The position numbers and the translations under genes were made by a program. Of a stretch of DNA of 53,581 bases, positions 9,534 to 24,548 are shown piece by piece. The stretch's first letter is position 1; each line of letters opens with the position of its first letter. The notes below the pieces were generated by a model that was not told the origin of the DNA, did not search any database, and worked only from the letters and a program-made list of their open reading frames with translations. Where the stretch lies: NCBI GenBank assembly GCA_024696635.1, contig JAILGP010000228.1, positions 1 through 53,581 of the forward strand, in the 5' to 3' direction. The stretch is from Eubacterium sp. (GTDB lineage: Bacteria > Bacillota > Clostridia > Lachnospirales > Lachnospiraceae).

Positions 9534-9566
9534 ATTTACCAAAAGGGTCAGACCCCAATGGCAAAT
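9534..9566 (+). repeat. 33-bp palindrome, copy 2 (left of a pair)
   Basis: Preceded by an 8-base fragment of the same element at 9524-9531 that starts on the stop codon of the upstream gene. The right arm has AAT instead of TTT, which breaks two pairs. Confidence 0.95.
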
Positions 9567-9584
9567 TAGATTGTACGCAATTGA

Positions 9585-9617
9585 ATTTACCAAAAGGGTC
9601 AGACCCCTTTGGCAAAA
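9585..9617 (+). repeat. 33-bp palindrome, copy 3 (right of a pair)
   Basis: Same orientation as copy 2, separated by 18 bases containing TTGTACGCAA, and preceded by TGA although no gene ends here. Confidence 0.95.
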
Positions 9618-9641
9618 AATGTAAAGGAGAGGTATTAGAAA

Positions 9642-10619: not shown

Positions 10620-10852
10620 ATGGGAAATGTATTTGCCTGGCAATGCAATTAAAATGTATTAAATCACCAAAGTATAATTTGCTAATTATTTATATTTTAC
10701 ATAAAAACTTCTAAATCAAATGGTACCTGTTAGTTATACTTAAAATATATAATATATGTTTTACTGAACCCTTTTTTATGTTATATTATTGGGGTTACTG
10801 TATTTTTAGAAGTTTTATAAAATTTTTACAAGTACATATTAGAGGAGTTAGT

Positions 10853-12223
10853 ATGGGAATATTTGAACTATTACTTTTGGCTGTTGGACTTGCCATGGAT
10901 GCTTTTGCGGTATCTATATGTAAAGGGCTTTCGGTAAAAAAACTGACATTGAAGGAATGCTTGACTTGTGGTACATGGTTCGGTCTCTTTCAGGGAATGA
11001 TGCCCTTTATAGGATATCTGGTAGGATCTCGATTTGAAAAATGGATCAACATCGTGGCGCCTTGGGTGGCATTTACCCTCCTTAGTATAATAGGAATAAA
11101 TATGATCCGCGAGGCCTTTTCCGATGAGGAGGAAGAGGAGAAGGATGACTTTGGCGTAAAGACAATGTTTATGATGGCGGTGGCTACCAGCATTGATGCA
11201 CTTGCCGTGGGAATTACATTTGTCGCTGTACCAGTAAAGGTTTTTGAGGCGGGCAAGCTTCAAAATACCATATTAGCCGTTATTGTAATCGGTGTAGTTA
11301 CATTTATTATTTCAGCATTTGGTGTTAAAATTGGAAATGTATTCGGTACCCGTTATAGAGCGGGTTCGGAGGTGATGGGTGGTACGATCCTGATTTTTAT
11401 CGGACTCAAGACCCTGATCGGTTTCCTTGACAAGTCGGATGCCATGAGTGATTCGGATACGGTGTTTGGAATGCTGATTCCTCTTATTGGAACGGTGCTG
11501 GGCGCTGCATCTGTTTATATTCAAAAATGGAAGCTTTCTGACAGGCTGCGTGTTCTCATGGCCGGGGCAAGCTCGGGTATTATGTTTTCGGCGGCTGTCT
11601 GGGGAATGCTTGAACCTGCGGCTACCGGATTCAGCACTGGAGGAAATCGTGCGGTGATTCCTGTGTTTATATGTTTTTGTATTGGGGTGGCAGTTCAGTT
11701 CGCTCTGGATAGTCTGGTTCCACATACGCATGCATTTGTGGAAATCACGGAAGGACCAAAGTCAAATCTTAAGATTGAAACCAGGATGATGCTTACTGAG
11801 GTTATTCACCATATTCCAGAGGGACTTGCTCTTGGAGCTATCTATGCGGCACATTTTATGCAGACAAAATTCATACCTGCATCCACAGCCTTATTTCTGG
11901 CAATTGCAATCGCTGTCCAGAATTTCCCGGAGGCTATGTTCGTCTCCATGCCTGTTAAGGAAAAGGGAAATGGTAAAGGTAAAGCCTTTTTCATGGGAGT
12001 TATTTCCGGTGTTCCAATTCCCTTGGCTGCAGTATTTGTATTGATAATGATTATATTATTCCCGACCATTCTCCCATACGTTATGGCTATGGCTGGCGGG
12101 GCTATGATTTATTCAATAGTAGAAGAAATTCCGCTTATGGTTGGTGAAAAAGATAACGATGGCGGTGCATTTTCTTTTGTCATCGGATTCTCAATCATAA
12201 TGTTACTGATTTTCACAAGATAA
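10853..12223 (+). CDS. MntP manganese exporter fused to a ZIP-family transporter
   Basis: A 456-residue membrane protein with two complete transporter modules. Residues 1-195 are MntP-like, with the duplicated motifs VGLAMDAFAV (Asp16) and ATSIDALAVG (Asp115) and an acidic loop at 91-99. Residues 203-456 are ZIP-like (ZupT/GufA type), with the two metal-site motifs HHIPEG (319-324) and QNFPEA (356-361). MntP exports Mn(II) while ZIP proteins usually import divalent metals, so the pairing is unusual. Upstream in-frame codons reach 10778, but GAGGAG at 10842-10847 points to the ATG at 10853. No frameshift or stop is visible at the junction. I see no yybP-ykoY manganese riboswitch upstream. Confidence 0.9.
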   Translation: MGIFELLLLAVGLAMDAFAVSICKGLSVKKLTLKECLTCGTWFGLFQGMMPFIGYLVGSRFEKWINIVAPWVAFTLLSIIGINMIREAFSDEEEEEKDDFGVKTMFMMAVATSIDALAVGITFVAVPVKVFEAGKLQNTILAVIVIGVVTFIISAFGVKIGNVFGTRYRAGSEVMGGTILIFIGLKTLIGFLDKSDAMSDSDTVFGMLIPLIGTVLGAASVYIQKWKLSDRLRVLMAGASSGIMFSAAVWGMLEPAATGFSTGGNRAVIPVFICFCIGVAVQFALDSLVPHTHAFVEITEGPKSNLKIETRMMLTEVIHHIPEGLALGAIYAAHFMQTKFIPASTALFLAIAIAVQNFPEAMFVSMPVKEKGNGKGKAFFMGVISGVPIPLAAVFVLIMIILFPTILPYVMAMAGGAMIYSIVEEIPLMVGEKDNDGGAFSFVIGFSIIMLLIFTR

Positions 12224-12255
12224 TTTACCAAAAGGGTCAGACCTCTTTGGCAAAT
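12223..12255 (+). repeat. 33-bp palindrome, copy 4
   Basis: Begins on the last base of the TAA stop of the MntP-ZIP gene and ends 18 bases before the Nudix start. Confidence 0.95.
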
Positions 12256-12272
12256 TTTGGAAGGAGTTTTAA

Positions 12273-12854
12273 ATGGGACTTTTTAAGATTATAGATATAA
12301 GTGAAGCTGATTTTGGTTGTGAGGAGCGCCCGGATGGACCATATGCCTTGCTTAAGCTTGAGGACCAAAAGAGTATTGAGGTTTCAGAGAGATGGATATC
12401 TCAAAATGGAATCGAAGAGGGAAAGTACGTCTGGATTGATGAATCTGGAAATGTTATGAAAGCCATTAAGGTTGTGGCTGCCATTATCGTTGCGGATAAA
12501 AATGATCAAAAGATGCTTTTTTCAACCCAGAGGGGCTATGGAGAATTCAAGGATGGCTGGGAGTTTCCCGGAGGCAAGGTTGAGGAGGGCGAAAGTCCTG
12601 AGCAGGCTATAGTTCGTGAAATAAAGGAGGAGCTTGATACCTTGATCAAGGTAGAAAAATTTATAGATAAGATAGAATATGATTATCCTGATTTTCATCT
12701 TTCGATGGATTGTTTCCTGTGCAGCATACTAGAGGGTAATCTTGTTCTTAAGGAACATGAAGCGGCAAAATGGCTCAGTAAAGAGGACATAGATAGTGTT
12801 GATTGGCTGCCGGCTGATGTGACCATAGTTGAAAAGGTGAGAGAATATTTATAG
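12273..12854 (+). CDS. Nudix hydrolase (MutT-like) with N-terminal extension
   Basis: A 193-residue protein. Residues 66-193 are a MutT-like Nudix domain: FPGGKVEEGESPEQAI then VREIKEEL (box about 100-121) carries the metal-binding glutamates. The usual Gly after EEL is Asp. It probably hydrolyses a nucleoside triphosphate such as an oxidised purine nucleotide, based on the family. The first 62 residues form a small acidic beta-rich domain not found in standard MutT (about 130 residues), of unknown purpose. GGAGTTTT precedes the ATG. Palindrome copy 4 lies between it and the transporter gene. Confidence 0.9.
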   Translation: MGLFKIIDISEADFGCEERPDGPYALLKLEDQKSIEVSERWISQNGIEEGKYVWIDESGNVMKAIKVVAAIIVADKNDQKMLFSTQRGYGEFKDGWEFPGGKVEEGESPEQAIVREIKEELDTLIKVEKFIDKIEYDYPDFHLSMDCFLCSILEGNLVLKEHEAAKWLSKEDIDSVDWLPADVTIVEKVREYL

Positions 12855-14040: not shown

Positions 14041-14073
14041 ATTTACCAAAGGGGTCAGACCCTTTTGGCAAAT
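14041..14073 (+). repeat. 33-bp palindrome, copy 5
   Basis: Starts on the base after the TAA stop of the cyclase gene. Confidence 0.95.
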
Positions 14074-14139
14074 TTTGATGCTCTTATGATGGGGGAAAAT
14101 GCGATATAATAGTGTGTGGAATTGGATAGTAATATTACT

Positions 14140-14262: not shown

Positions 14263-14613
14263 ATGATAATGAATATAGATAGTATTACACAGGAACTTGA
14301 TAGATTGTATCAATTTGAGATAAGTGAATATATTGCAAGATGTGATCAGCTTAAAAAATCCGGGTTTAAGATATACCGTAACTCTGCTGGTCAGCATAAG
14401 GTTGTCCTTGCAAATGCACAGGCAAGAAAGAGTCAGGAACAGCAATATGTTTATGATGAGAATCAAGGTAAAAGAGATAATGCTTTTACAAGAGCGAAGA
14501 AAGATAACATTTTCATAAGAGCGAAAAATAGGATTGTAAAGGGATATAATTCATTTCGCAGTGTCATTGGTTTTATAAAATATCTTTATTCCACTTACAG
14601 TAAAAATCAGTGA
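14263..14613 (+). CDS. Small basic protein, unknown
   Basis: A 116-residue protein that I do not recognise. It is helical and charged at the N-terminus (SITQELDRLYQFEISEYIAR), with a strongly basic middle and C-terminal half containing two related stretches, NAFTRAKK and NIFIRAKN, 11 residues apart. No signal peptide or clear membrane segment. No strong ribosome binding site is visible; a second ATG at 14269 is equally possible. That palindrome copy 6 starts on its stop codon, as at recognised genes, supports it being real. Confidence 0.55.
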   Translation: MIMNIDSITQELDRLYQFEISEYIARCDQLKKSGFKIYRNSAGQHKVVLANAQARKSQEQQYVYDENQGKRDNAFTRAKKDNIFIRAKNRIVKGYNSFRSVIGFIKYLYSTYSKNQ

Positions 14614-14645
14614 TTTACCAAAGGGGTCAGACCCTTTTGGCAAAT
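14613..14645 (+). repeat. 33-bp palindrome, copy 6
   Basis: Starts on the last base of the TGA stop of the 116-residue gene. Confidence 0.95.
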
Positions 14646-14724
14646 GTCTTGGCGAAAATCAGATTGCATTTTCACTGGGCTAGGTTTATTCTAGTAATAT
14701 ATGAATATGAAATGTAACGGCAAA

Positions 14725-14757
14725 GGCGTCGATACCAGGAGGTATTGGCGTCTTTTT
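14725..14757 (+). terminator. Terminator-like leader hairpin before the PEP/pyruvate-binding gene
   Basis: A 12-bp stem (GGCGTCGATACC with GGTATTGGCGTC, three G-U pairs), loop AGGA, then TTTTTGTTTT. It ends about 50 bases before the start codon. It could terminate upstream transcription or act as an attenuator. Related in sequence to the hairpin at 17577-17606. Confidence 0.75.
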
Positions 14758-14807: not shown

Positions 14808-17480
14808 ATGGCTGCTTTTGAGGAAACTAAATCTGGCATACCAATGATGGATGAAGCCCTGCAGAACATACGTTTGGGGGATAATGTTGTCTGGCAGGTT
14901 CCATCTCTGGATGAATTCAGGCTTGTGGCGGAAAAATTCGTGACCCAGGCCATAGCAGATAAGAGAAATCTTATTTATGTAAGGTTTGCTGAGCATGAAC
15001 CTATACTTAAGCCAAGAGAGGGGCTTAAGATTGCAAATGTAAATCTCTCCCACAGATTTGAGACGTTTACAGTGGATATCCATAATCTGATCGAAAAGGA
15101 GGGCGGGGATGCATTTTATGTATTTGACTGCCTGTCAGAGTTGGAGGCTGCCTGGGCCACGGATCTTATGATGGGCAACTTCTTTCATCTGACCTGCCCT
15201 TATTTATTTATACTGGATACCGTTGCATTTTTCCCTATAATCCGGGGACGGCATTCTTTTGATGCCATAGCCACAATCCGAGATACTACCCAGCTTTTTC
15301 TGGATGTATATTCTGATGAGGGAAATGCTGCTGATCAGATTTACGTTCGTCCTATGAAGGTTTGGAAACGCTATTCACCAACCATGTTCCAGCCCCATGT
15401 TCTAAGTAAGAAGGATTTTTCCTTTAAGGTCCTGGCTGATGGAACTGAGGTCAGCAGGTTTTACAGCATTATGAACAAGAGCACATTTAATGATGTGGAC
15501 CAGAACCAGGATAGCTGGGAGCGCTTTTTCAAATCCACCAGAAGAAAATACGAGTCGGGCCAGGACGTAAGTCAGGACTGCTCCCGTATGTGCAACATTA
15601 TGTTAACTCGTGACGAGAGGATGAGGACTCTTATAAAGGCTAATTTCAGGCCGGAGGATTATTTTGAGGTTCATTCCAGAATGGTGGGAACCGGCATGAT
15701 TGGTGGAAAGGCCTGTGGTATGCTCCTGTCCAGAAAAATTGTGGAGAACCACCGGCCGGATATTTATACACGCATTGAGCCCCACGATTCCTATTATATT
15801 GGGTCGGATGTATTCTATGCATTCATTGTGGACAATGGTTTCTGGGATCTAAGAATCCGCCAGCGTACCGAGGAGGGATATTTTGCCCTGGCTGATGAGT
15901 TTGCTGAGAAAATCATGGCTGGTAGTTTCTCATCCCGGGTGGAAAATGACCTTAGAAGAATCCTGGATTATTATGGCAATGACCCCTTCATCTGTCGTTC
16001 CAGTTCCATTTTGGAGGATGGCTTTGGAAATGCATTTGCCGGCAAGTACGAGTCGGTTTTCTGCGGTAATATGGGAAGTCCTGAGGATAGACTTCTTGAA
16101 TTTGAAAATGCAATTAAAACGGTTTACGCAAGTACCATGAGCGAGTCCGCCCTGGATTACAGGAAGAGGCGAGGCCTGGACAAGAGGGATGAGCAGATGG
16201 CCATTCTGGTTCAGAGGGTTTCAGGTTCCAGGTATGATGGTTTCTTCATGCCTTGCGCCGCGGGAGTAGGTTACTCCATGAGTCCTTATAGAATTGGAAA
16301 TGTAAAAGCAGAGTCAGGTATGCTAAGACTTGTTATGGGACTTGGAACTGCCGCTGTGGATAGGCGTACAGGCTCTTACCCCAGAATGGTTTCCCTGGAT
16401 GCTCCTTCCAAAATCATACATTCTACCATGGCGGACAGGCAGCAGTATTCCCAAAGAATAGTGGATGGAATCAGCCTTGTGTCAGGCCAGGTGGAGGGTT
16501 TTGATCCTCTGAAAATAAGTGAAAGCTTTCCGTATTATCAGAAGAAGCTTGTATATTCCCATAATACTGATACTGAGAGAATGTTCAGGGAGAGGGGGCA
16601 GAGAAGAGAGGTTCTTTATGTTTCCTGTGAGGGCCTTACTAAAAATGATGCTTTGATGAAGGATATGAAGGAAATCCTTGAACTTATACAGGAACATTAT
16701 GAATATCCGGTGGATACTGAATATACCATAAATATAGCCCAGGATGGAAGCTATGTGGTGGACCTTCTTCAGTGCAGGCCACTTCAGCTTACCCAGGAAG
16801 GCGATAGGGTGGACTTCCCAGATGACATTTCCAGGGAAAATATTCTACTTGAGACAAAGGGTGTATCCATGGGATTTTCCCGCAAGGTTAAGCTGGATGG
16901 GGTGGTATATATTGACCCTATTAAGTATTACAATATGCCTTACAAGAAGAAATATGATATAAGGAAATACCTTTCAAATGTAAATTGGTACTATAAGGGA
17001 AAGAATAAGAAGCTGCTTCTTCTCACGCCGGGTCGTATATGTACTTCCTCGCCGGAGCTTGGGGTGCCATCTGCCTTTGGAGATATTGGTGAATTTGGTG
17101 TAATAGCCGAGATTTCGGAATCCAAGGCGGGATATATACCGGAACTCAGCTATGGAAGCCATATATTCCAGGATCTTGTGGAAGCGGGGATTCTCTACAC
17201 GGCCGTATTTGAGGGTGCAAGCACACTGACCTATAATCCGGGGATTTTGACTGGCAATGACATTTGCCAGGAAAAAGGCAGGGAAGATGGCATAAGGAAT
17301 ATTACCAGCCTGATTATTGACATTTCCCCTGAAAACGAAGGAATCCTCAATGTCTACGACCTGTCCCAGGCTAATATGTATTTATACTACGACCTGACAG
17401 AAGAAAGGCTGCTAATTTACCAAAGGGGTCAGACCCCTTTGGCAAATTTTGGGGCAAATATAAATTTATTTGACAAGTAA
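14808..17480 (+). CDS. PEP/pyruvate-binding domain protein with degenerate RecA-like N-terminus
   Basis: An 890-residue cytosolic protein. Residues 1-230 resemble KaiC/RAD55-type ATPases (SGIPMMDEALQNIRLGDNVV), but VPSLDEF stands where a P-loop would be. Residues about 290-660 are the ATP-grasp-like nucleotide half of PEP synthase/PPDK: GGKACGM, then CRSSSILEDGFGNAFAG, ending LLQCRPLQL. The phospho-histidine and PEP barrel domains are absent, so it is not a pyruvate dikinase. A third domain carries LLTPGR and PELSYGSHIFQDL. The last 22 residues come from palindrome copy 7 and sequence beyond it. GAGGAGGTG precedes the ATG. It heads a set with ATP-grasp, alpha-E and transglutaminase-like genes. 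Confidence 0.85.
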   Translation: MAAFEETKSGIPMMDEALQNIRLGDNVVWQVPSLDEFRLVAEKFVTQAIADKRNLIYVRFAEHEPILKPREGLKIANVNLSHRFETFTVDIHNLIEKEGGDAFYVFDCLSELEAAWATDLMMGNFFHLTCPYLFILDTVAFFPIIRGRHSFDAIATIRDTTQLFLDVYSDEGNAADQIYVRPMKVWKRYSPTMFQPHVLSKKDFSFKVLADGTEVSRFYSIMNKSTFNDVDQNQDSWERFFKSTRRKYESGQDVSQDCSRMCNIMLTRDERMRTLIKANFRPEDYFEVHSRMVGTGMIGGKACGMLLSRKIVENHRPDIYTRIEPHDSYYIGSDVFYAFIVDNGFWDLRIRQRTEEGYFALADEFAEKIMAGSFSSRVENDLRRILDYYGNDPFICRSSSILEDGFGNAFAGKYESVFCGNMGSPEDRLLEFENAIKTVYASTMSESALDYRKRRGLDKRDEQMAILVQRVSGSRYDGFFMPCAAGVGYSMSPYRIGNVKAESGMLRLVMGLGTAAVDRRTGSYPRMVSLDAPSKIIHSTMADRQQYSQRIVDGISLVSGQVEGFDPLKISESFPYYQKKLVYSHNTDTERMFRERGQRREVLYVSCEGLTKNDALMKDMKEILELIQEHYEYPVDTEYTINIAQDGSYVVDLLQCRPLQLTQEGDRVDFPDDISRENILLETKGVSMGFSRKVKLDGVVYIDPIKYYNMPYKKKYDIRKYLSNVNWYYKGKNKKLLLLTPGRICTSSPELGVPSAFGDIGEFGVIAEISESKAGYIPELSYGSHIFQDLVEAGILYTAVFEGASTLTYNPGILTGNDICQEKGREDGIRNITSLIIDISPENEGILNVYDLSQANMYLYYDLTEERLLIYQRGQTPLANFGANINLFDK
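17415..17447 (+). repeat. 33-bp palindrome, copy 7 (translated)
   Basis: Lies inside the end of the preceding frame and is read as IYQRGQTPLAN. This copy has the best-paired arms, with only the A/C mismatch at position 5. Confidence 0.95.
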
Positions 17481-17518
17481 TTTGATATGTGATAAATTAC
17501 ATTTTGTAAATGAGAGCA

Positions 17519-17553
17519 AGGGCGTTCCTGTTTTTTAGGGACGTCCTTTTTTT
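17519..17553 (+). terminator. Intrinsic terminator after the PEP/pyruvate-binding gene
   Basis: An 11-bp stem (AGGGCGTTCCT with AGGGACGTCCT, two G-U pairs), loop of seven bases, seven Ts. Confidence 0.88.
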
Positions 17554-17576
17554 ATCAGAGATATAGATTAGGCAAG

Positions 17577-17606
17577 GGCGCTTATGCAAGGCATAGGCGT
17601 CTTTTT
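17577..17606 (+). terminator. Terminator-like hairpin in the leader of the ATP-grasp gene
   Basis: An 11-bp stem (GGCGCTTATGC with GCATAGGCGTC, G-U pairs), loop AAG, then TTTTTGTTTTT. The T-run stops about 12 bases before the ribosome binding site, so an mRNA starting upstream of the hairpin must pass through it. This favours attenuation or partial read-through. Confidence 0.75.
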
Positions 17607-17637
17607 GTTTTTCATCTGATAGATAAGGAGGATGGAA

Positions 17638-18963
17638 ATGAAATTTATGGAGCAACAGTTATTAAAGCATACTGATAAAATCAATGATTTGCTGGCCCGA
17701 TACGGAGTAAAATTTGGAATATATAAGAATAATACATTCAAGGAGCAATTATTTCCCTTTGATGCTATACCGAGAATTATAGATTTTTCCGAATTTAAAA
17801 TGTTAGAGAAAGGGCTGAAACAGAGAGTTTTGGCCCTTAATTTATTTTTAAGGGATATTTATTCTAAAAAGAATATCGTTAAAGATGGAGTGGTACCAGA
17901 GGATTTTATATTTGCATCATCCGGATATATGGCAGAATGCGAGGGGGTAATGCCTGTTAAAGGGGTTTATTCTCACATTTCCGGAATCGATCTGGTTAAG
18001 GGCAAAGATAATGAGTGGTATATCCTTGAAGATAATCTCAGGGTCCCATCGGGTGCATCTTATCCCATGATTGCAAGAGACCTTTGCAGGAAAAGCTCGC
18101 CAGAAACATTTCATAATACCAAGCTTCTGGATAATAGGAATTATGCGGACATGCTGAGGAAAACCATGGACTATGTGAATACAGGAGGTCATACCGTGAT
18201 CCTGACACCAGGCAGGTATAATGCGGCTTATTTCGAGCATTCCTACCTGGCGGAGAAAACAGGGGCCCACCTGGTAAGCGGTTCGGAATTATTTGTGGAA
18301 AATGATCTGCTTTACTACGTCAGCGCCAACGGGACCAAGGAGAAGGTTGGGGCGGTCTATCGCAGGATTTCCGATGAATATCTGGATCCCATGAACTTTA
18401 ATCCTGAGTCCCTGATCGGCATCCCCCATATATACGACGTTTTTAGGAAGGGAAATGTAGCCTTACTCAATGCTCCTGGAAATGGGGTGGCCGATGATAA
18501 GGGAATCTACTATTTCGTTCCTAAAATGATAAGGTACTATCTGGGCGAAGAAGCGATTTTGCAAAATGCACCGACATATCTTCCATTTTATGAAGAGGAT
18601 ATGAAATACGTACTGGAGCATTTTGATGATCTGGTCCTTAAGGATGTGGCTGAGGCAGGCGGCTATGGCGTTGTATTTGGAAATGCAATGTCAAAGGAGG
18701 AAAAGGAGAACTTTATTACCCTTCTTAAGGCTGAGCCGCGTAGGTTCATAGCCCAGGAGGTAATAGATTTCCAGGATCTTGATATTTTGGATGAAGGATG
18801 TATAGTTCCGAGAAAAGCGGATCTCAGGGCATTTGTCCTTATGGCAGATGAGCCACTGGTCTGGGCCAGCGGTCTGACCAGATTTTCGCGAAATCCAGAT
18901 TCATTTATTGTTAATTCATCTCAGGGAGGAGGTTTTAAAGACACATGGGTATTATCTCAGTAA
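17638..18963 (+). CDS. Circularly permuted ATP-grasp protein (COG2308 type)
   Basis: A 441-residue protein of the circularly permuted ATP-grasp family. Visible family blocks are LALNLFLRDIYSKKNIVKDG, the EDNLRVPSGASYPMIARDL stretch, YFVPKMIRYYLGEEA, and the late VLKDVAEAGGYG with FIAQEVI and PRKADLRAFVLM. The family is predicted, from genome context, to form amide or peptide bonds using ATP; substrates are not established. AAGGAG is one base from an ATG at 17632 and seven from the ATG at 17638, so I choose the latter. Its end overlaps the alpha-E gene by 19 bases, and ATP-grasp plus alpha-E plus transglutaminase is a recurrent trio. Confidence 0.88.
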   Translation: MKFMEQQLLKHTDKINDLLARYGVKFGIYKNNTFKEQLFPFDAIPRIIDFSEFKMLEKGLKQRVLALNLFLRDIYSKKNIVKDGVVPEDFIFASSGYMAECEGVMPVKGVYSHISGIDLVKGKDNEWYILEDNLRVPSGASYPMIARDLCRKSSPETFHNTKLLDNRNYADMLRKTMDYVNTGGHTVILTPGRYNAAYFEHSYLAEKTGAHLVSGSELFVENDLLYYVSANGTKEKVGAVYRRISDEYLDPMNFNPESLIGIPHIYDVFRKGNVALLNAPGNGVADDKGIYYFVPKMIRYYLGEEAILQNAPTYLPFYEEDMKYVLEHFDDLVLKDVAEAGGYGVVFGNAMSKEEKENFITLLKAEPRRFIAQEVIDFQDLDILDEGCIVPRKADLRAFVLMADEPLVWASGLTRFSRNPDSFIVNSSQGGGFKDTWVLSQ

Positions 18964-19610
18964 AACAAATTGATAATCTTTATTGGTTAGGAAGGTACAC
19001 GGAGCGGGTTTATACGACCCTTAGCATGTTTTCAAAGAGTTTTGACCTTATGATTGATGCTACGGATGAGGTTTATCCTAAATATTGCGAGGCCCTGGAT
19101 ATCCCTAACATTTATCAGTCCAAGGAGGATTTTCTCAGGCGTTATCCCTTTGACGAGTCAATACCGGATTCTATAATAAGTAATCTTAATCGTGCCTATG
19201 ACAATGCAATCGTCCTGAGGGAGACCATTGGCTCAGATGCCCTTTCATATATTCAGCTTTCTATCTATGCCATGAACAAGGCGGCAATGAGCAATTCTCC
19301 CCTTATAGAACTGCAGGAGATCTCGGATTTTCTTCTATCCTTCTGGGGCATAGTTGACGATCAGCTCGATGTGGACCAGATCAGAAATATAATCAAAGCC
19401 GGCAAGAGAATCGAAAGAGTTGACCTATATGCAAGGCTGGAGCTTGATAAAAGCCGGCTGGAAAGGGAGATTCACAGGATGATTCCAAGAGTTCTCAGGA
19501 GTGGCATGAAGTATAACCAGTCTGCATTAAACAAGGTGCGTGAGCTTATTAATGGAAATGTAATCGATTATGACCAGATTATTTCAAATGTTGAAGCGAT
19601 TGTAGGCTAG
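18945..19610 (+). CDS. Alpha-E domain protein (COG2307 type)
   Basis: A 221-residue, all-helical protein. The start MGIISVKQIDNLYWLGRYTE matches the conserved opening of alpha-E proteins (NLxWxGRYxER), and ELQEISDFLLSFWGIVDDQL fits the later helices. The family nearly always neighbours or is fused to circularly permuted ATP-grasp proteins and is thought to be part of the same ligase machinery. It overlaps the upstream gene by 19 bases; a GGGAGGAGG lies inside the upstream gene about 12 bases before the ATG, so translation is probably coupled. It is shorter than most members (around 300 residues), a point worth noting. Confidence 0.85.
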   Translation: MGIISVKQIDNLYWLGRYTERVYTTLSMFSKSFDLMIDATDEVYPKYCEALDIPNIYQSKEDFLRRYPFDESIPDSIISNLNRAYDNAIVLRETIGSDALSYIQLSIYAMNKAAMSNSPLIELQEISDFLLSFWGIVDDQLDVDQIRNIIKAGKRIERVDLYARLELDKSRLEREIHRMIPRVLRSGMKYNQSALNKVRELINGNVIDYDQIISNVEAIVG

Positions 19611-19637
19611 TGGAAATAATGACTAAGAGGAAGCAAG

Positions 19638-20432
19638 ATGGCATTTTTAAATTATGAATATAAAATGAAAATTATTTATTCCGAGCCAGTGGAGAAATGT
19701 TATTTCACCCTCAAGGCTATCCCGACTGAGGATTTCAGGCAAAGGAGTATATCCTATGAAATAAGTATGCTGCCTGATACCAGATATTCCAAGAGTATGG
19801 ATTCCTTTGGAAATATGCAGATCATAGGCAGTGTGGCTAGTCCTCATTCCGAATATGAATACACCATAAGGGGACTGGTCGAAACCCATAATACCAATAT
19901 TACAGGTGGAATTGATGAGAGCCTTCTGGGTATGTACAAGTATCCCTTTGGGAAGTGCAAGCCAGGACCTAACATAAATGAATTTGCAAGATTTTTAGAA
20001 GGTGAAATATCAAATTGCAAGTCGGATAAAGAAAAATGTATCAGAGTAATGAACATTTTAAATGAAAATATGATATATCAATCCGGAAGTACAAAGATAG
20101 AGACCTCTGCTGAAGAGGCCTTTTCCGGTCGTATGGGGGTATGTCAGGATTTTGCCCATATTTATATAACGGTACTAAGACTATTAGGCATTCCGGCAAG
20201 ATATGTTTGCGGCCTTATTGTCGGGGAGGGGGAGAGCCATGCCTGGGTTGAAGCCGCGTGTGATGGCAATTATATTGCATTTGACCCTACTCATAATAGG
20301 GAAATCATGGATGAATATATAAAGCTTGGAAATGGTAGAGATGCCTCAGACTGCACCATAAATAAGGGAGTCATGTGGGGCGGGGGAAATCAGACACAGA
20401 TAATTGAGGTTTATGTTGAGAAATATTATTGA
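19638..20432 (+). CDS. Transglutaminase-like cysteine hydrolase
   Basis: A 264-residue protein. The N-terminal half is a beta-rich domain typical of bacterial transglutaminase-like proteins found with ATP-grasp/alpha-E genes. The C-terminal half has an intact catalytic triad: Cys169 in GVCQDFAH, His201 in ESHAWVEA, Asp216 in AFDPTHN. No signal peptide, so it acts in the cytosol. The family can cleave or exchange amide bonds; here it probably acts on the product of the neighbouring ligase, either releasing or transferring it (inference). AGAGGAAGC precedes the ATG, 27 bases after the alpha-E gene. Confidence 0.9.
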   Translation: MAFLNYEYKMKIIYSEPVEKCYFTLKAIPTEDFRQRSISYEISMLPDTRYSKSMDSFGNMQIIGSVASPHSEYEYTIRGLVETHNTNITGGIDESLLGMYKYPFGKCKPGPNINEFARFLEGEISNCKSDKEKCIRVMNILNENMIYQSGSTKIETSAEEAFSGRMGVCQDFAHIYITVLRLLGIPARYVCGLIVGEGESHAWVEAACDGNYIAFDPTHNREIMDEYIKLGNGRDASDCTINKGVMWGGGNQTQIIEVYVEKYY

Positions 20433-20461
20433 TGAAGCCTGGGATTTGCCGGGACAAATAA

Positions 20462-20557
20462 GAAATCAGCAGGCCAGCGTTAAATAGTATGTGAATATAG
20501 GAAATCAGCAGGCCAGCGTTGAACAGCATGAGAATATATAAAATCAGAATGCCAATC
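20462..20557 (+). repeat. 39-bp tandem repeat, two and a half copies
   Basis: Units 20462-20500 and 20501-20539 both begin GAAATCAGCAGGCCAGCGTT; a decayed partial third follows to 20557. They fill the gap between the transglutaminase-like and hydrolase genes. Confidence 0.9.
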
Positions 20558-20587
20558 AAAATTCAAGGCAGATATAAGGAGTAAGAA

Positions 20588-21604
20588 ATGGTAGAGCTAG
20601 TGACATGGGTGGGGCTTCCAATCGATGAAAAATTAATGATAAAGAAGAACCGTCTTATGCCGGATGTAACAGAAAATATAAAGATTATAAAAACTGATGG
20701 CGAAGAAGATAGTGAAAGTCAAAGACAAGCTGATATGGAGCAAAGCAGGCTGAAACGTATCAGCATAGTTACCGGAATTCATGGTGATGAGCTTGAAGGA
20801 CAGTATGTATGCTATGAGCTTCAGAGAAGGATTAATCTGGAGAGGCATAATCTTAAAGGTATAGTTGATATATATCCGGCAATGAATCCCCTGGGTGTTG
20901 ATTCAATTACCAGGGGTATTCCTGCATTTGATCTGGATATGAACAGATTATTTCCTGGAAATAAGGATGGAAATATGACGGAATACCTGGCTGCAGGAAT
21001 AATGAATGATGTTATGGGATCTGACCTGGTTCTGGATATCCATGCAAGTAATATATATCTTACGGAAATACCCCAGATCAGGATAAATGAGCTGCATAAG
21101 GATTTTCTTCTTCCCATGGCGGAGCTTTCAAATGTGGATTTTATATGGGTCCATGGAGCAAGTACTGTCCTGAAAGCTACATTTGCCCATAGCTTAAATA
21201 GCGTGGGAACTCCTGTGCTTGTCTGTGAAATGGGAGTGGGAATGAGGCTTACCAGAGAATATGGGGACCAGCTTGTGAATGGAATATTTAACCTTATGAA
21301 GGAACTGGGAATATGGAAGGGCCAGGTGGAGAAGGTGAGAAGACCGATTATTTCACAGAATCCTGAGGATGTTATCTATTTAAATGCAAGTGCCAGCGGC
21401 CTTTTTGTGCCGGAGGTTAAACATGGAACGATTCTTAATAGGGGAGACCTGATAGGAAGAATAGTTAATCCTCTGGATGGAAGGGTTTTAGATGAGGTCA
21501 AGGCTCCTGATGAGGGAATGCTTTTTACAATAAGAGATTATCCCATTGTAGATGAAGGATCTCTGATGGGAAGAATATTAAAAAGAGAGGTTCTTGGTCT
21601 ATGA
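20588..21604 (+). CDS. Succinylglutamate desuccinylase/aspartoacylase-like zinc hydrolase
   Basis: A 338-residue M14-type deacylase. Zinc ligands are visible: His and Glu in GIHGDELEG and His in LVLDIHASN. The substrate-binding DMNRLFPG motif and the catalytic-type Glu in VLVCEMGVG are also present. The C-terminal 90 residues form a beta-barrel-like cap (SGLFVPEVKHGTILNRGDLI). The family removes acyl groups from N-acylated amino acids, so this enzyme could trim an amide made by the neighbouring ligase set (inference). AAGGAG precedes the ATG. It overlaps the next gene by four bases (ATGA), so the two are translationally coupled. Confidence 0.9.
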   Translation: MVELVTWVGLPIDEKLMIKKNRLMPDVTENIKIIKTDGEEDSESQRQADMEQSRLKRISIVTGIHGDELEGQYVCYELQRRINLERHNLKGIVDIYPAMNPLGVDSITRGIPAFDLDMNRLFPGNKDGNMTEYLAAGIMNDVMGSDLVLDIHASNIYLTEIPQIRINELHKDFLLPMAELSNVDFIWVHGASTVLKATFAHSLNSVGTPVLVCEMGVGMRLTREYGDQLVNGIFNLMKELGIWKGQVEKVRRPIISQNPEDVIYLNASASGLFVPEVKHGTILNRGDLIGRIVNPLDGRVLDEVKAPDEGMLFTIRDYPIVDEGSLMGRILKREVLGL

Positions 21605-22554
21605 AGAAGAAGATAATTTATGAAATAAAGGGACTATATAGAGACGATTTTAGAATTACTGGTTATGAATTTGGGAGTGGGAAGGAATCTGTATGTATAG
21701 TTGGAAACACAAGAGGAAATGAAATCCAGCAGATTTACTGCTGTTCCCAGCTGATTAAGAAGGTAAAACAGCTTGAGGAGGAGGGACGTATTAAGGATGG
21801 CCATAGGATTCTTATTATTCCATCTGCAAATCCTTATTCAGTCAATATTCAAAAAAGGTTCTGGCCAATAGATAATACAGATATTAACAGGATGTTTCCA
21901 GGCTATAATCTTGGAGAGACCACTCAGAGAATAGCGGATGGACTTTTCAGCAAAATTAAGGATTATGAATATGGAATACAGTTTACTTCCTTTTATATGC
22001 CGGGAGAATTTGTGCCTCATGTCAGATATATGAAGGAGGGCTTCACCAAAAAATCTGATGCTGAAAAATTTGGTCTTAAGTATATAGTAGAAAGAAAGGT
22101 AAGACCATATGATACAGCAACCCTTAACTATAATTGGCAAGTATGGAATACCAAGGCATTTTCCCTTTACATGAATACCACCTCTAAGATAAGTAAAAGC
22201 GGAGCGGGACAGGCTGTCCTTACTATAATGAACTTCATGGCAAATAGTGGGATCATCAAGTACTCCGCAATTGGTGAAAGGGATATCATAAGCCTTGATG
22301 ATACAGAACTCATATCTGTTAGAACCGCCAAGTCCGGATTCTACGAAGCCCTTGTTAAGGCCGGTGACATTGTGGAGGCGGGAACCCCGCTGGCTAACAT
22401 AATCAACCCCTACGAAGGTGACATACTAGAAACACTATATGCTCCCGTGAAAGGTACCATATTCTTCTGCCACACCGATCCCCTTACATATGCCAACACC
22501 GCCGTAATAAAACTCCTAATTTACCAAAGGGGTCAGACCCTTTTGGCAAATTAG
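21601..22554 (+). CDS. Aspartoacylase-like paralogue lacking the zinc site
   Basis: A 317-residue paralogue of the preceding hydrolase with the same fold order. The HGDE motif has become TRGNE (His to Arg), the DIHAS motif has become IQFTS (His to Phe), and the region equal to VLVCEMGVG lacks the catalytic Glu. DINRMFPG and the C-terminal cap (SGFYEALVKAGDIVEAGTPL) are kept. It therefore probably binds a ligand or its partner rather than hydrolysing. Its last 11 residues are encoded by palindrome copy 8, and its TAG stop begins on the last base of the repeat. Start overlaps the upstream stop in ATGA. Confidence 0.85.
   Translation: MKKKIIYEIKGLYRDDFRITGYEFGSGKESVCIVGNTRGNEIQQIYCCSQLIKKVKQLEEEGRIKDGHRILIIPSANPYSVNIQKRFWPIDNTDINRMFPGYNLGETTQRIADGLFSKIKDYEYGIQFTSFYMPGEFVPHVRYMKEGFTKKSDAEKFGLKYIVERKVRPYDTATLNYNWQVWNTKAFSLYMNTTSKISKSGAGQAVLTIMNFMANSGIIKYSAIGERDIISLDDTELISVRTAKSGFYEALVKAGDIVEAGTPLANIINPYEGDILETLYAPVKGTIFFCHTDPLTYANTAVIKLLIYQRGQTLLAN
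22519..22551 (+). repeat. 33-bp palindrome, copy 8 (translated, left of a pair)
   Basis: Read in frame as IYQRGQTLLAN at the end of the paralogue gene. Confidence 0.95.
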
Positions 22555-22569
22555 ATTGCGTACAATTGA

Positions 22570-22602
22570 ATTTACCAATGGGGTCAGACCCCTTTGGCAA
22601 AT
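22570..22602 (+). repeat. 33-bp palindrome, copy 9 (right of a pair)
   Basis: Same orientation, 18 bases after copy 8, preceded by TGA. The spacer contains TTGCGTACAA, the reverse complement of the core in the 9.5-kb pair. Confidence 0.95.
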
Positions 22603-22658
22603 CCTTATGGTAAATCTACCCTTGCCTACAATTCCTCATGAATGTATAATTTAATATT

Positions 22659-24548
22659 ATGAAGAGGATATTCAAGAAAAATATTATAGAGCGTAAGATA
22701 AATGATATGAAGCTGCGTAATAAAATGCTGCTTCTTTTTATCGTGTGCGTTCTTCTTCCTTTGCTGGTTACAGATGGTATTATTATTTATAATGTCTATA
22801 GAAATTATCAGTTTCAGAAAACTCAGGATGTTCGTAGTGATGCAGCAGCAGTTAAATATGATATGATAAATAATCTGGAGTATCCTGCTGCTCTTATCAG
22901 AAATTTGTATAAAAATACATATGTTGAAAATCTTCTGGACAGGCAGTACGATAGTCCTATGGATTATTATGATTCCTATTCTAAATTCATAAATAGTTCC
23001 GTATATGCTTCCTGGTCAAGTAATATCATTGAGTCGGTAGCCATATACGCCGACAATGATACCATTCTGAATGGTGGAATGTTCTACAGGCTGGATTCGG
23101 TTAAAGATGAAGAGTGGTACAAAATAGCTTCAAATAGTGAAAATATAATGCTTATGTTTGACCATAGTGGAGAGCTTCCGGAATCGTATAATACCAGAAG
23201 AATATACCTTCTCAGAAAACTCAACAATTCGCGAAATGATAAATGTGAAAAAATCCTGAAGATGGAAATAAATTATAGATCATTTCAGGATAAAGTCCTG
23301 AAAGAGAGCCTCAGTTCAGATGTTTATATATGTCAGGGTGATAGATTATTAATGACTAATGCAGGTGCGACAAATTACACTGCAAATTACAAGAAATTTG
23401 ATAAAAATACAAAGTATGACTATAGCTTTGAAATGAACCTATATGGTAATATTTTTACTGTATATGTAAAAAGTAATGATACGAGTTTTTTTGATGACAA
23501 TAGAGGTATATTTGGTATAGTTACTGTTCTTATTATTATAAATGTTATACTTCCTCTTTTTATGATCCATAGACTTGATACATCTGTTGCCCGAAGAATA
23601 ACTATACTTGATCTGGTTTTCGATCATGCAAATAAAGAAAATCTGGAGAAAGTGGAAAAAATAGATAACATTGAGGGAAATGATGAAATAGCTTCTCTCA
23701 TGAAAAACTATAATGTTATGGCCGATCGTCTGAACGATCTTATGCAGACGGTTTATATTAACAGGTTTAAAGAGCAGGAAATGAATATTGCCAGACAAAA
23801 TGCTGAACTACTGGCTCTGCATAGTCAGATAAATCCACATTTTCTATTTAACGCCCTGGAAAGTATCCGTATGCATAGTCTGATAAAGAGAGAGGATGAG
23901 ACTGCGGAAATGGTTGAAAATCTGGCGCTTATGCAAAGGGCAAATGTTGACTGGAAAAATGATACAGTTGACCTGGATGAGGAAATGGATACGGTTATAG
24001 CATATCTCAAGCTTCAGAAATACAGGTTTGGTGAAAGACTGCAGTATGATATTGATATAGAACCTGAATGTAATAAAATTATGATACCTAAACTATCTAT
24101 AGTTACATTTGTGGAAAACAGTATTATACATGGTATTGAAAACAAGGCCGAAACAGGATGGATATTCATTCGTATAAGCAAGGAAGAGGATGGAAGTCTT
24201 ATAGAAATAGAAGATACCGGTGTTGGTATGGATGAGCCTACCAGATTAAGACTTATAGCTTCTATGAATAATGCAAGCATGGATATTATAAAATCTCAGA
24301 AAAGTATCGGAATCATAAATGCTTGTATAAGACTTAAGATGATGACAAATGATAATGTCAGGTTTGATATGGAAACTGAAATGGGAGTGGGAACTACTAT
24401 TTCAATTAAGTTACTTGATCAGACTGAAGCAGTAGAGGAAAATGAAGAAGATGCAGCAGGCTCAATAAATGCAACAGGCCCGATAAATGCAACAAGCCCG
24501 ATAAATGCAACAAGCCCAATAGATGCATCAGCCAAAACAGATATATAA
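22659..24548 (+). CDS. Sensor histidine kinase, YesM/LytS type
   Basis: A 629-residue membrane kinase. A helix at about 22-44 and another at about 288-308 flank an extracellular Cache-like sensor. A HAMP-like stretch follows, then the His_kinase domain with SQINPHFLFNALES (His394 as phospho-acceptor) and an ATPase domain with NSIIHGIENK and GVGMDEPT. Partner is the response regulator 82 bases downstream. The C-terminus carries a run of INATSP units. No good ribosome binding site lies before the ATG at 22659, so an ATG at 22707 is a possible alternative. Context points to sensing xylo-oligosaccharides, perhaps through the binding protein. Confidence 0.9.
   Translation: MKRIFKKNIIERKINDMKLRNKMLLLFIVCVLLPLLVTDGIIIYNVYRNYQFQKTQDVRSDAAAVKYDMINNLEYPAALIRNLYKNTYVENLLDRQYDSPMDYYDSYSKFINSSVYASWSSNIIESVAIYADNDTILNGGMFYRLDSVKDEEWYKIASNSENIMLMFDHSGELPESYNTRRIYLLRKLNNSRNDKCEKILKMEINYRSFQDKVLKESLSSDVYICQGDRLLMTNAGATNYTANYKKFDKNTKYDYSFEMNLYGNIFTVYVKSNDTSFFDDNRGIFGIVTVLIIINVILPLFMIHRLDTSVARRITILDLVFDHANKENLEKVEKIDNIEGNDEIASLMKNYNVMADRLNDLMQTVYINRFKEQEMNIARQNAELLALHSQINPHFLFNALESIRMHSLIKREDETAEMVENLALMQRANVDWKNDTVDLDEEMDTVIAYLKLQKYRFGERLQYDIDIEPECNKIMIPKLSIVTFVENSIIHGIENKAETGWIFIRISKEEDGSLIEIEDTGVGMDEPTRLRLIASMNNASMDIIKSQKSIGIINACIRLKMMTNDNVRFDMETEMGVGTTISIKLLDQTEAVEENEEDAAGSINATGPINATSPINATSPIDASAKTDI
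24466..24540 (+). repeat. 18-bp coding repeat in the kinase C-terminus
   Basis: About four in-frame copies encoding INATGP or INATSP, the last degenerate (IDASAK). Confidence 0.85.

Follow-up and report, generated by a model that had tools for sequence, protein, structure and literature searches.

The 53,581-nt window analysed here (contig JAILGP010000228.1 of a Eubacterium sp., family Lachnospiraceae) carries, in the region under study at 14808-22554, six open reading frames (ORFs) on the plus strand: a gene for a protein that joins a KaiC fold to a PPDK_N ATP-grasp domain (gene 1), and a block of five genes encoding a circularly permuted ATP-grasp protein (CPG), an Alpha-E protein (AE), a transglutaminase-like enzyme (TG) and two aspartoacylase-like proteins (H1 and H2). 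Gene 1 and the block are best read as two neighbouring transcription units rather than as one six-gene operon, and both units probably belong to a single nitrogen regulon with a role in nitrogen limitation. The block most likely serves nitrogen-short cells, because the leader hairpin that precedes it also precedes ammonia and glutamine genes, and because the trio of CPG, AE and TG is induced by nitrogen limitation or through NtrC in Pseudomonas and Burkholderia. The trio itself was already known; new here is a trio without the proteasome relative Anbu and with a pair of aspartoacylase-like proteins, one predicted to be active and one dead.

Each unit would start with a terminator-like hairpin on the plus strand. 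The hairpin before gene 1 (14716..14756; -21.3 kcal/mol, z -6.4) ends 52 bp 5' of the start codon and has an alternative fold with an AANGNN hexaloop, and two further hairpins precede the block (17512..17549, -22.4 kcal/mol, z -5.6; 17568..17605, -19.9 kcal/mol, z -5.5). These three have the longest stems among the terminator-like sites (z -5.5 to -6.4) of the 9-kb region used for promoter and terminator site counts. They score 39.3, 35.0 and 38.9 bits, respectively, with R1, a covariance model built from 30 leaders of the block and of gene 1 only, and being training sequences they match by construction. The element common to the sequences 5' of CPG and of gene 1 is a hairpin of the form CAAAGGCG(T/C)...(A/G)CGCCTTTT. 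A pattern and fold filter retained 72 of 139 leaders; 30 clean ones, the three in the window among them, were then picked by hand. Their alignment contains 14 pairs, 8 of them with changes on both sides, and covariation is 0.631 compared with 0.224 in shuffled and at most 0.211 in slid versions. The outer stem is the invariant part, which can be explained by a second fold that uses the same nucleotides: those flanking AANGNN pair across it to form a hexaloop with A1 and G4. For the stem of this hexaloop, which lay outside the filter criteria, 85.3% of cells are paired (71.3% when shuffled) and covariation is 0.571 (0.299 when shuffled). The terminator-like fold and the hexaloop fold are mutually exclusive, as in an attenuator. 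The hexaloop hairpin occurs at 109/151 elements, a count without shuffle control, and a strict test for a hexaloop with an overlapping terminator was passed by 20/60 and 23/79 leaders, against 0.1 and 0 expected. Promoter-like sites 5' of 60 elements match the consensus at a mean of 9.4/12 positions (7.6 when shuffled), and 29 of the 50 elements with at least 8 promoter matches have a -10 box whose end lies 10-17 nt upstream of the hairpin; the hairpin therefore probably lies near the start of the transcript. A search of Rfam with the window and 14 loci returned no family at any leader, and two tRNAs and one glmS elsewhere.

The genes that lie behind this leader are mainly nitrogen genes. A strict leader pattern has four matches in the 3.15-Mb genome of the organism, three in the window and one before glutamine synthetase III, and the backwards pattern has none. 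Over 2.18 Mb of fetched loci, a strict regular expression matched before CPG in 21 places, before gene 1 in 14 and at 18 other positions; of these 18, several are opposite-strand readings or precede FUSC, C26 or amt genes. R1 sites are present in 49 of the 61 relatives searched, own genome included, with at most 9 matches per genome. The nine sites of the own genome comprise the three described above and those before glutamine synthetase III, amt with P-II, gltB, gltD and both sides of a divergent RidA-like/LysR-like pair assigned by eye. The regulon loci numbered 41, from 17 genomes (own plus 16), and were hand-chosen among the R1 matches listed; sites known to precede CPG or gene 1 were set aside, as were four of the five matches listed for genome G001. 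The 66 R1 matches in these loci fell to 61 once four opposite-strand readings and one duplicate were dropped, and one match was without a called ORF. Among the 57 distinct ORFs behind the sites, a few of which look spurious (L259, L261), Pfam identified glutamine synthetase 12 times, ammonium transporter with P-II 10 times, glutamate synthase 8 times and CTP synthase (pyrG) 4 times, together with three RelA_SpoT, two amidotransferase domains (PurF by eye), one CarA, one NifH and one AnfO. The remainder are transporters, oxidoreductases, one glycogen phosphorylase and others without a family. None of the nitrogen genes found by R1 was in its training set. Within 220 nt, R1 sites precede CPG at 38 of 63 loci and gene 1 at 26 of 78, and in four block loci (L127, L142, L145, L176) a site is found 3.9-5.7 kb upstream, where it precedes an amino-acid ATP-binding cassette (ABC) transporter leading into the block. 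The NifH and AnfO cases come from L254 and L253 of G080, a genome from another family of the order, where R1 sites precede nifH and an AnfO-type nitrogenase gene.

The hairpins might instead be ordinary terminators of upstream genes, a local style with no regulatory meaning. They do have the form of intrinsic terminators, and the 9-kb region shows no clear excess of terminator-like sites as a class over chance. Under that explanation, which we regard as very improbable, one would not expect R1 matches to be so few per genome, the upstream promoter-like sites to stand at the observed spacing, or the downstream genes to be mainly nitrogen genes. The narrower idea that the two hairpins before CPG terminate gene 1 was dropped after promoter-like sites before hairpins and the other leaders had been seen.

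Nitrogen control of the trio has been published for other bacteria (the articles are cited here from parts of their text). In Pseudomonas putida, nitrogen-limited culture exceeds carbon-limited culture 11.1-fold for PP2685, 6.6-fold for PP2686 (transglutaminase-like) and 7.1-fold for PP2687 (PMC3325844), and PP_2688 and PP_2685 are higher by log2 3.99 and 4.44 on nitrate than on ammonium (PMC8050072). In a reporter assay the PP_2688 promoter responds 3.7-fold, and the urtA promoter responds too (PMC8050072). In Burkholderia cenocepacia, mutation of ntrC lowers the trio cluster 6.0- to 9.4-fold (PMC5491218), and in marine metagenomes the trio domains are associated with urea metabolism genes (PMC3597751). 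The clusters of P. putida (PP_2685-2688) and B. cenocepacia (I35_5080-83) hold the same three families as the block, in P. putida together with Anbu, which is a frequent but not universal fourth partner of the trio elsewhere (PMC5666114). Nitrogen control, published for those two species, is what we infer for the block here, which differs from the proteobacterial trio in carrying a leader hairpin instead of NtrC/sigma-54, in its short AE, in having no proteasome-family gene and in the two aspartoacylase-like genes that follow the trio.

ANTAR-type antiterminators are candidate regulators of the leader. Published ANTAR targets (EutV, NasR) have a hexaloop with A1 and G4 that overlaps a terminator, mostly before nitrogen genes (PMC3369931, in part). 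Likewise, the leader here has an A1/G4 hexaloop overlapping the 5' arm of a terminator, with mainly nitrogen genes downstream, and the published eut consensus AGCAANGRRGCUY is close to its AGCAAAGGCGCUY. It differs from the targets described there in having nearly always one hairpin instead of two, and in lying near the predicted transcript start. A two-hairpin target was tested and rejected: an upstream second hexaloop hairpin was seen in 4/148 cases, against 1.1 expected, and thus the leader is not classed as an ANTAR target, even if it may work like one. Some leaders consist of two whole elements in tandem. An ANTAR gene is present in 43/49 genomes with R1 and in 2/12 without (p 5e-6; R1 counts per genome and ANTAR presence were transferred by hand from result tables), and in the own genome one lies 3' of glnA-like and carB-like genes, named by eye. 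An ANTAR-type antiterminator would, when nitrogen is short, hold the 5' arm as the hexaloop hairpin, so that no terminator would form and the genes would be read.

Several observations weigh against the nitrogen reading of the two units. The number of terminator-like sites in the 9-kb region (10 versus 7.1 +- 3.1 expected) is unexceptional. The 30 aligned leaders were hand-picked from the 72 filtered, and therefore their pairing percentage is partly due to selection. The R1 counts at CPG and at gene 1 include training sequences and are not independent; R1 is missing upstream of CPG at 18/63 block loci, and within 220 nt of gene 1 at 52/78 loci, some of these genes lying behind gltD or amt. To these must be added the scarcity of the second hairpin, and the origin of the association between R1 and ANTAR, which comes mostly from the own genus (outside it, 9/13 versus 2/11, p 0.02). 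In P. putida, the PP_2685 and glnK promoters were nitrogen-agnostic as reporters (PMC8050072), and expression of the Anbu operon was unchanged in several other conditions (PMC5666114), both articles being cited in part.

The six ORFs are all found at the stated coordinates on the plus strand, as an initial annotation of the region had it, together with overlaps or short gaps. The overlaps exist between CPG and AE (19 bp) and between H1 and H2 (4 bp); the six do not form one run, as there is a gap of 151 bp with the two hairpins between gene 1 and CPG, and there are 155 bp between TG and H1. Gene 1 (14808..17480, 890 aa; PPDK_N at residues 297-673) forms a separate unit. The block comprises CPG (17632..18963, 443 aa; PF14403, E 1e-132), AE (18945..19610, 221 aa; PF04168, E 2e-21, Pfam positions 6-165 of 294 covered), TG (19638..20432, 264 aa; PF01841 and PF08379), H1 (20588..21604, 338 aa; PF24827), a zinc aspartoacylase/AstE-like hydrolase, and H2 (21601..22554; PF24827), a zinc-less paralogue of H1 that keeps the Arg and Asn-Arg positions. 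The Pfam matches (PPDK_N, CP_ATPgrasp_2, Alpha-E, Transglut_core and, twice, AstE_AspA_cat) confirm the families first assigned to the six genes. The TG-H1 gap contains a 39-bp tandem duplication, 87% identical (window 20458-20535).

That annotation had proposed one six-gene system to make, trim and bind a product, and the identical six-gene order does recur in L062, while in L132 and L177 gene 1 likewise precedes the block. Such a single operon is nevertheless hardly credible, since the two hairpins and a promoter-like site separate gene 1 from CPG, and since most blocks lack gene 1 alongside and vice versa. The promoter-like site (17470..17498, plus strand; TTGACA-17-TAAATT, 10/12 consensus matches) overlaps the end of gene 1 and is weak evidence alone, because the 9-kb region has 35 such sites where 25.8 are expected, and the class is not clearly above chance. 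Gene 1 or a piece of it was found within the fetched stretch at 4/60 CPG loci. Of the 80 best gene-1 loci, three have the block in their stretch, and in one more, L088, H2 lies at the edge. Where both occur, gene 1 may be upstream, downstream or divergent. Gene 1 as a part of the block was consequently rejected, on its rarity as a neighbour and on the sites between it and CPG.

Without gene 1, the block is a constant bacterial gene set. A search with the CP_ATPgrasp_2 profile covered 397 own-family genomes (taken to be Lachnospiraceae, as most of the best relatives named are) and 99 relatives; 70/397 own-family genomes matched, 58 above the cut-off. The higher-scoring matches, with short and weak ones left out, gave 60 CPG loci, 59 from the own family and one from the order; neighbour counts rest on crude ORF calling in fetched stretches that reach up to ~9 kb, many of them short. 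CPG, AE, TG, H1 and H2 stand in one order and strand at 51/60 loci fetched through CPG alone, and at 54/63 once L034, L062 and L100, found through gene 1, are added. The full block is missing from nine CPG loci: three are cut off by the end of their contig, one is without a separate TG, and in five, members are absent or have been lost. In L179, a 605-aa ORF that matches H1 (10845-12671, counted in the orientation of the block) takes the place of TG and H1, possibly as a TG-H1 fusion. A scan of the phylum yielded eight loci: all five genes are present in L187, L189, L190 and L191, which are from other families, and in L184 too with tblastn for TG, and the remaining three have the trio with no hydrolases nearby. 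The Alpha-E proteins of L185, L186 and L188 were identified by eye and not by profile search. The linkage of the hydrolase pair to the trio in other Lachnospiraceae, one part of the earlier prediction, is thus strongly supported, and the five-gene order with it; the linkage of gene 1 is weak, and the exact six-gene order elsewhere is that of L062. The earlier unit was wrong in gene 1 and right in the hydrolase pair.

The proteasome family (PF00227) gave no match in the 42 own-family genomes that carry CPG, and Anbu is therefore absent from them; in eight other genomes searched there was one match each, not adjoining CPG. No report of aspartoacylase/AstE genes or of ANTAR leaders joined to the trio was recognised in the open-access literature searched, and the main text of PMC3369931 names no transglutaminase, ATP-grasp or aspartoacylase.

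E20-R21 and E157-R158 of AE are kept in at least 58/60 sequences. The Cys-His-Asp triad of TG, reported as intact from the single sequence, is invariant in all 57 aligned sequences (Cys169, His201, Asp216). The contrast between a zinc hydrolase and a zinc-less paralogue also holds across relatives: His65, Glu68, His152 and Glu214 of H1, which in the aspartoacylase/AstE family are the zinc ligands and catalytic Glu, are kept in 56/56, whereas H2 lacks both zinc His in 53/55 (Arg stands at the first and the second is missing) and the catalytic Glu in 55/55. Arg109, Asn119 and Arg120 (H1 numbering) are kept in 55/55 H2 sequences. The H2 proteins of L184 and L187, from other families, retain both zinc His and have already lost the Glu. 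This graded loss fits a catalytically dead binding or regulatory partner of H1. With AstE, aspartoacylase and DoeB (the best NCBIfam match, E 2e-18, far below cut-off), H1 shares the zinc ligands and the catalytic Glu, and it differs from them in adjoining a dead-looking paralogue. CPG aligns over residues 8-442 of 443 with the solved relative 3n6x (E 1e-115), a putative glutathionylspermidine synthase of the same circularly permuted ATP-grasp type; it is without a fused amidase domain, and the activity of 3n6x is itself only putative.

Gene 1 was initially described as a phosphoenolpyruvate (PEP)/pyruvate-binding protein, which holds as a family name only. PPDK_N is present; Pfam matched no phosphohistidine or PEP-binding domain, and inspection by eye of 8 and of 57 aligned sequences showed no Walker A P-loop behind the first strand. 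For these reasons gene 1 should not be a PEP synthase. An AlphaFold model of the whole protein (57 sequences; predicted local distance difference test, pLDDT, 82.7) matches the ATP-binding domain of rifampin phosphotransferase, and one of residues 1-205 (33 sequences, pLDDT 82.1) has the KaiC/RecA fold (Foldseek E 2e-10, template modelling score 0.75). It thus shares the PPDK_N ATP-binding fold with PEP synthase and rifampin phosphotransferase (2ols, 5hv6) and differs from them in the domains not found and in its KaiC-fold domain in front; from the KaiC ATPase, whose fold its N-terminal part shares, it differs in the P-loop. Lys301, Arg397, Glu638, Gln655 and Arg657 are invariant in 57 sequences and presumably have the roles known for the PPDK_N family. 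At least 571 relatives appeared in the genome scan, and 92/397 own-family genomes have matches at E up to 1e-50; by hand count these comprise 18/52 genomes with CPG (>100 bits) and 74/345 without. In seven genomes (G183, G202, G246, G311, G420, G464, G481) a relative of ~640 aa aligns only from residue 231-258 onward, and so seems to be without the KaiC-fold domain. Within the fetched stretches of 80 gene-1 loci are GltB (9), GltD (7), ammonium transporter (8) and RelA/SpoT-like (7) genes, compared with 0, 0, 2 and 3 around the block at 64 loci, three loci being in both sets. Gene 1 is probably a lone ATP-dependent phosphotransferase or a regulator linked to glutamate synthesis.

The chemistry of the block can be outlined tentatively. 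CPG with AE would spend ATP to join an amino or amine compound, taken up from outside, in an amide; TG would transfer or open the amide; and the zinc enzyme H1 would free the amino acid, with H2 as a catalytically dead partner that may still bind the carboxylate. The net outcome would be nitrogen recovered. The making and trimming of the earlier proposal are compatible with the data; its PEP reading and its inclusion of gene 1, a separate unit, are not upheld, and nitrogen control was the clue that it missed. Amino-acid importer (ABC transporter) genes lie in the fetched stretch at 7/64 block loci and a C26 amidase at 4/64 (2/80 gene-1 loci), and directly 5' of the block in L176 and L180, both of one genus, are a class-III aminotransferase and an iron-dependent alcohol dehydrogenase. 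The C26 amidase family includes gamma-glutamyl hydrolases. Importers, amidase and the one-genus aminotransferase point to amino or diamino compounds and to N-acyl or gamma-glutamyl intermediates, and the L176/L180 pair of genes suggests, as a lead, an AstC/AstE-like route for acylated diamino acids.

A FUSC/ArAE-like gene lies in the fetched stretch at 12/64 block and 8/80 gene-1 loci, although some matches are weak. In L145 (7528-8856) this recurrent neighbour is one ORF with a FUSC/ArAE-type membrane part and a haloacid-dehalogenase-like domain, and the leader hairpin precedes its relatives in L174 and L178. Both observations would be explained if CPG made an amide for export or storage (a signal, a compatible solute or a storage compound), which the FUSC-like protein exported and H1/H2 recycled. 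We consider this unlikely, as losing a nitrogen compound during nitrogen shortage would be wasteful and the amino-acid transporters near the block are importers. In a peptide-tagging system, proteins would receive a small peptide or an amino acid from CPG and AE, TG and H1/H2 would take this tag off or alter it, and nitrogen shortage would use it for protein turnover. Tagging was proposed for the trio with Anbu as the peptidase by Iyer et al. 2009, as cited in PMC5666114, and Anbu, a proteasome relative, is up in nitrogen-limited P. putida (PMC5666114, in part). For the block here tagging is quite improbable, given the lack of a proteasome-family gene in the 42 own-family genomes and the small-molecule character of the recurrent neighbours (amino-acid ABC transporter, C26 amidase, FUSC-like protein). 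Aspartoacylase-family enzymes, moreover, cleave small N-acyl amino acids.

Returning to nitrogen recovery, it is possible, albeit doubtful, that the trio is a general bacterial salvage system for nitrogen starvation, in which amino compounds are first acylated at the expense of ATP and then hydrolysed. In Clostridia an aspartoacylase enzyme/pseudoenzyme pair would then replace Anbu, and the switch would be a one-hairpin ANTAR attenuator at the mRNA 5' end, common to glutamine synthetase, ammonium transport, glutamate synthase, glutamine-using nucleotide enzymes and a new KaiC-fold/PPDK_N protein that would belong to this nitrogen circuit, which may also involve guanosine tetraphosphate (ppGpp).

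Other features of the window were observed. A dispersed palindrome of ~33 nt, ATTTACCAAAGGGGTCAGACCCCTTTGGCAAAT, occurs singly or paired 51 nt apart at 9534-9631, 12223-12269, 14041-14087, 14613-14659, 17415-17461 and 22519-22616; genome-wide it has 103 + 95 matches at up to 2 mismatches (some sites counted twice, as it is palindromic) and 0 for the backwards control. It covers the ends of gene 1 (last ~21 aa) and H2 (last ~11 aa), and both tails have YQRGQT(P/L)LAN. In-frame 18-bp tandem repeats at the end of a histidine kinase gene (24451-24540) encode INATGPINATSP..., and a single ORF at 10778-12223 joins an MntP-like metal exporter and a ZIP-like transporter, assigned by eye.

The trio has no settled function, and the shared leader groups the block with genes for ammonia assimilation in gut and rumen Clostridia. 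Because the leader ties the block to nitrogen genes independently of the NtrC control known in Proteobacteria, the search for the substrate of the trio can concentrate on a single defined condition. The leader also offers a genome-wide handle on nitrogen control in Lachnospiraceae and names further members, above all the KaiC-fold/PPDK_N protein.

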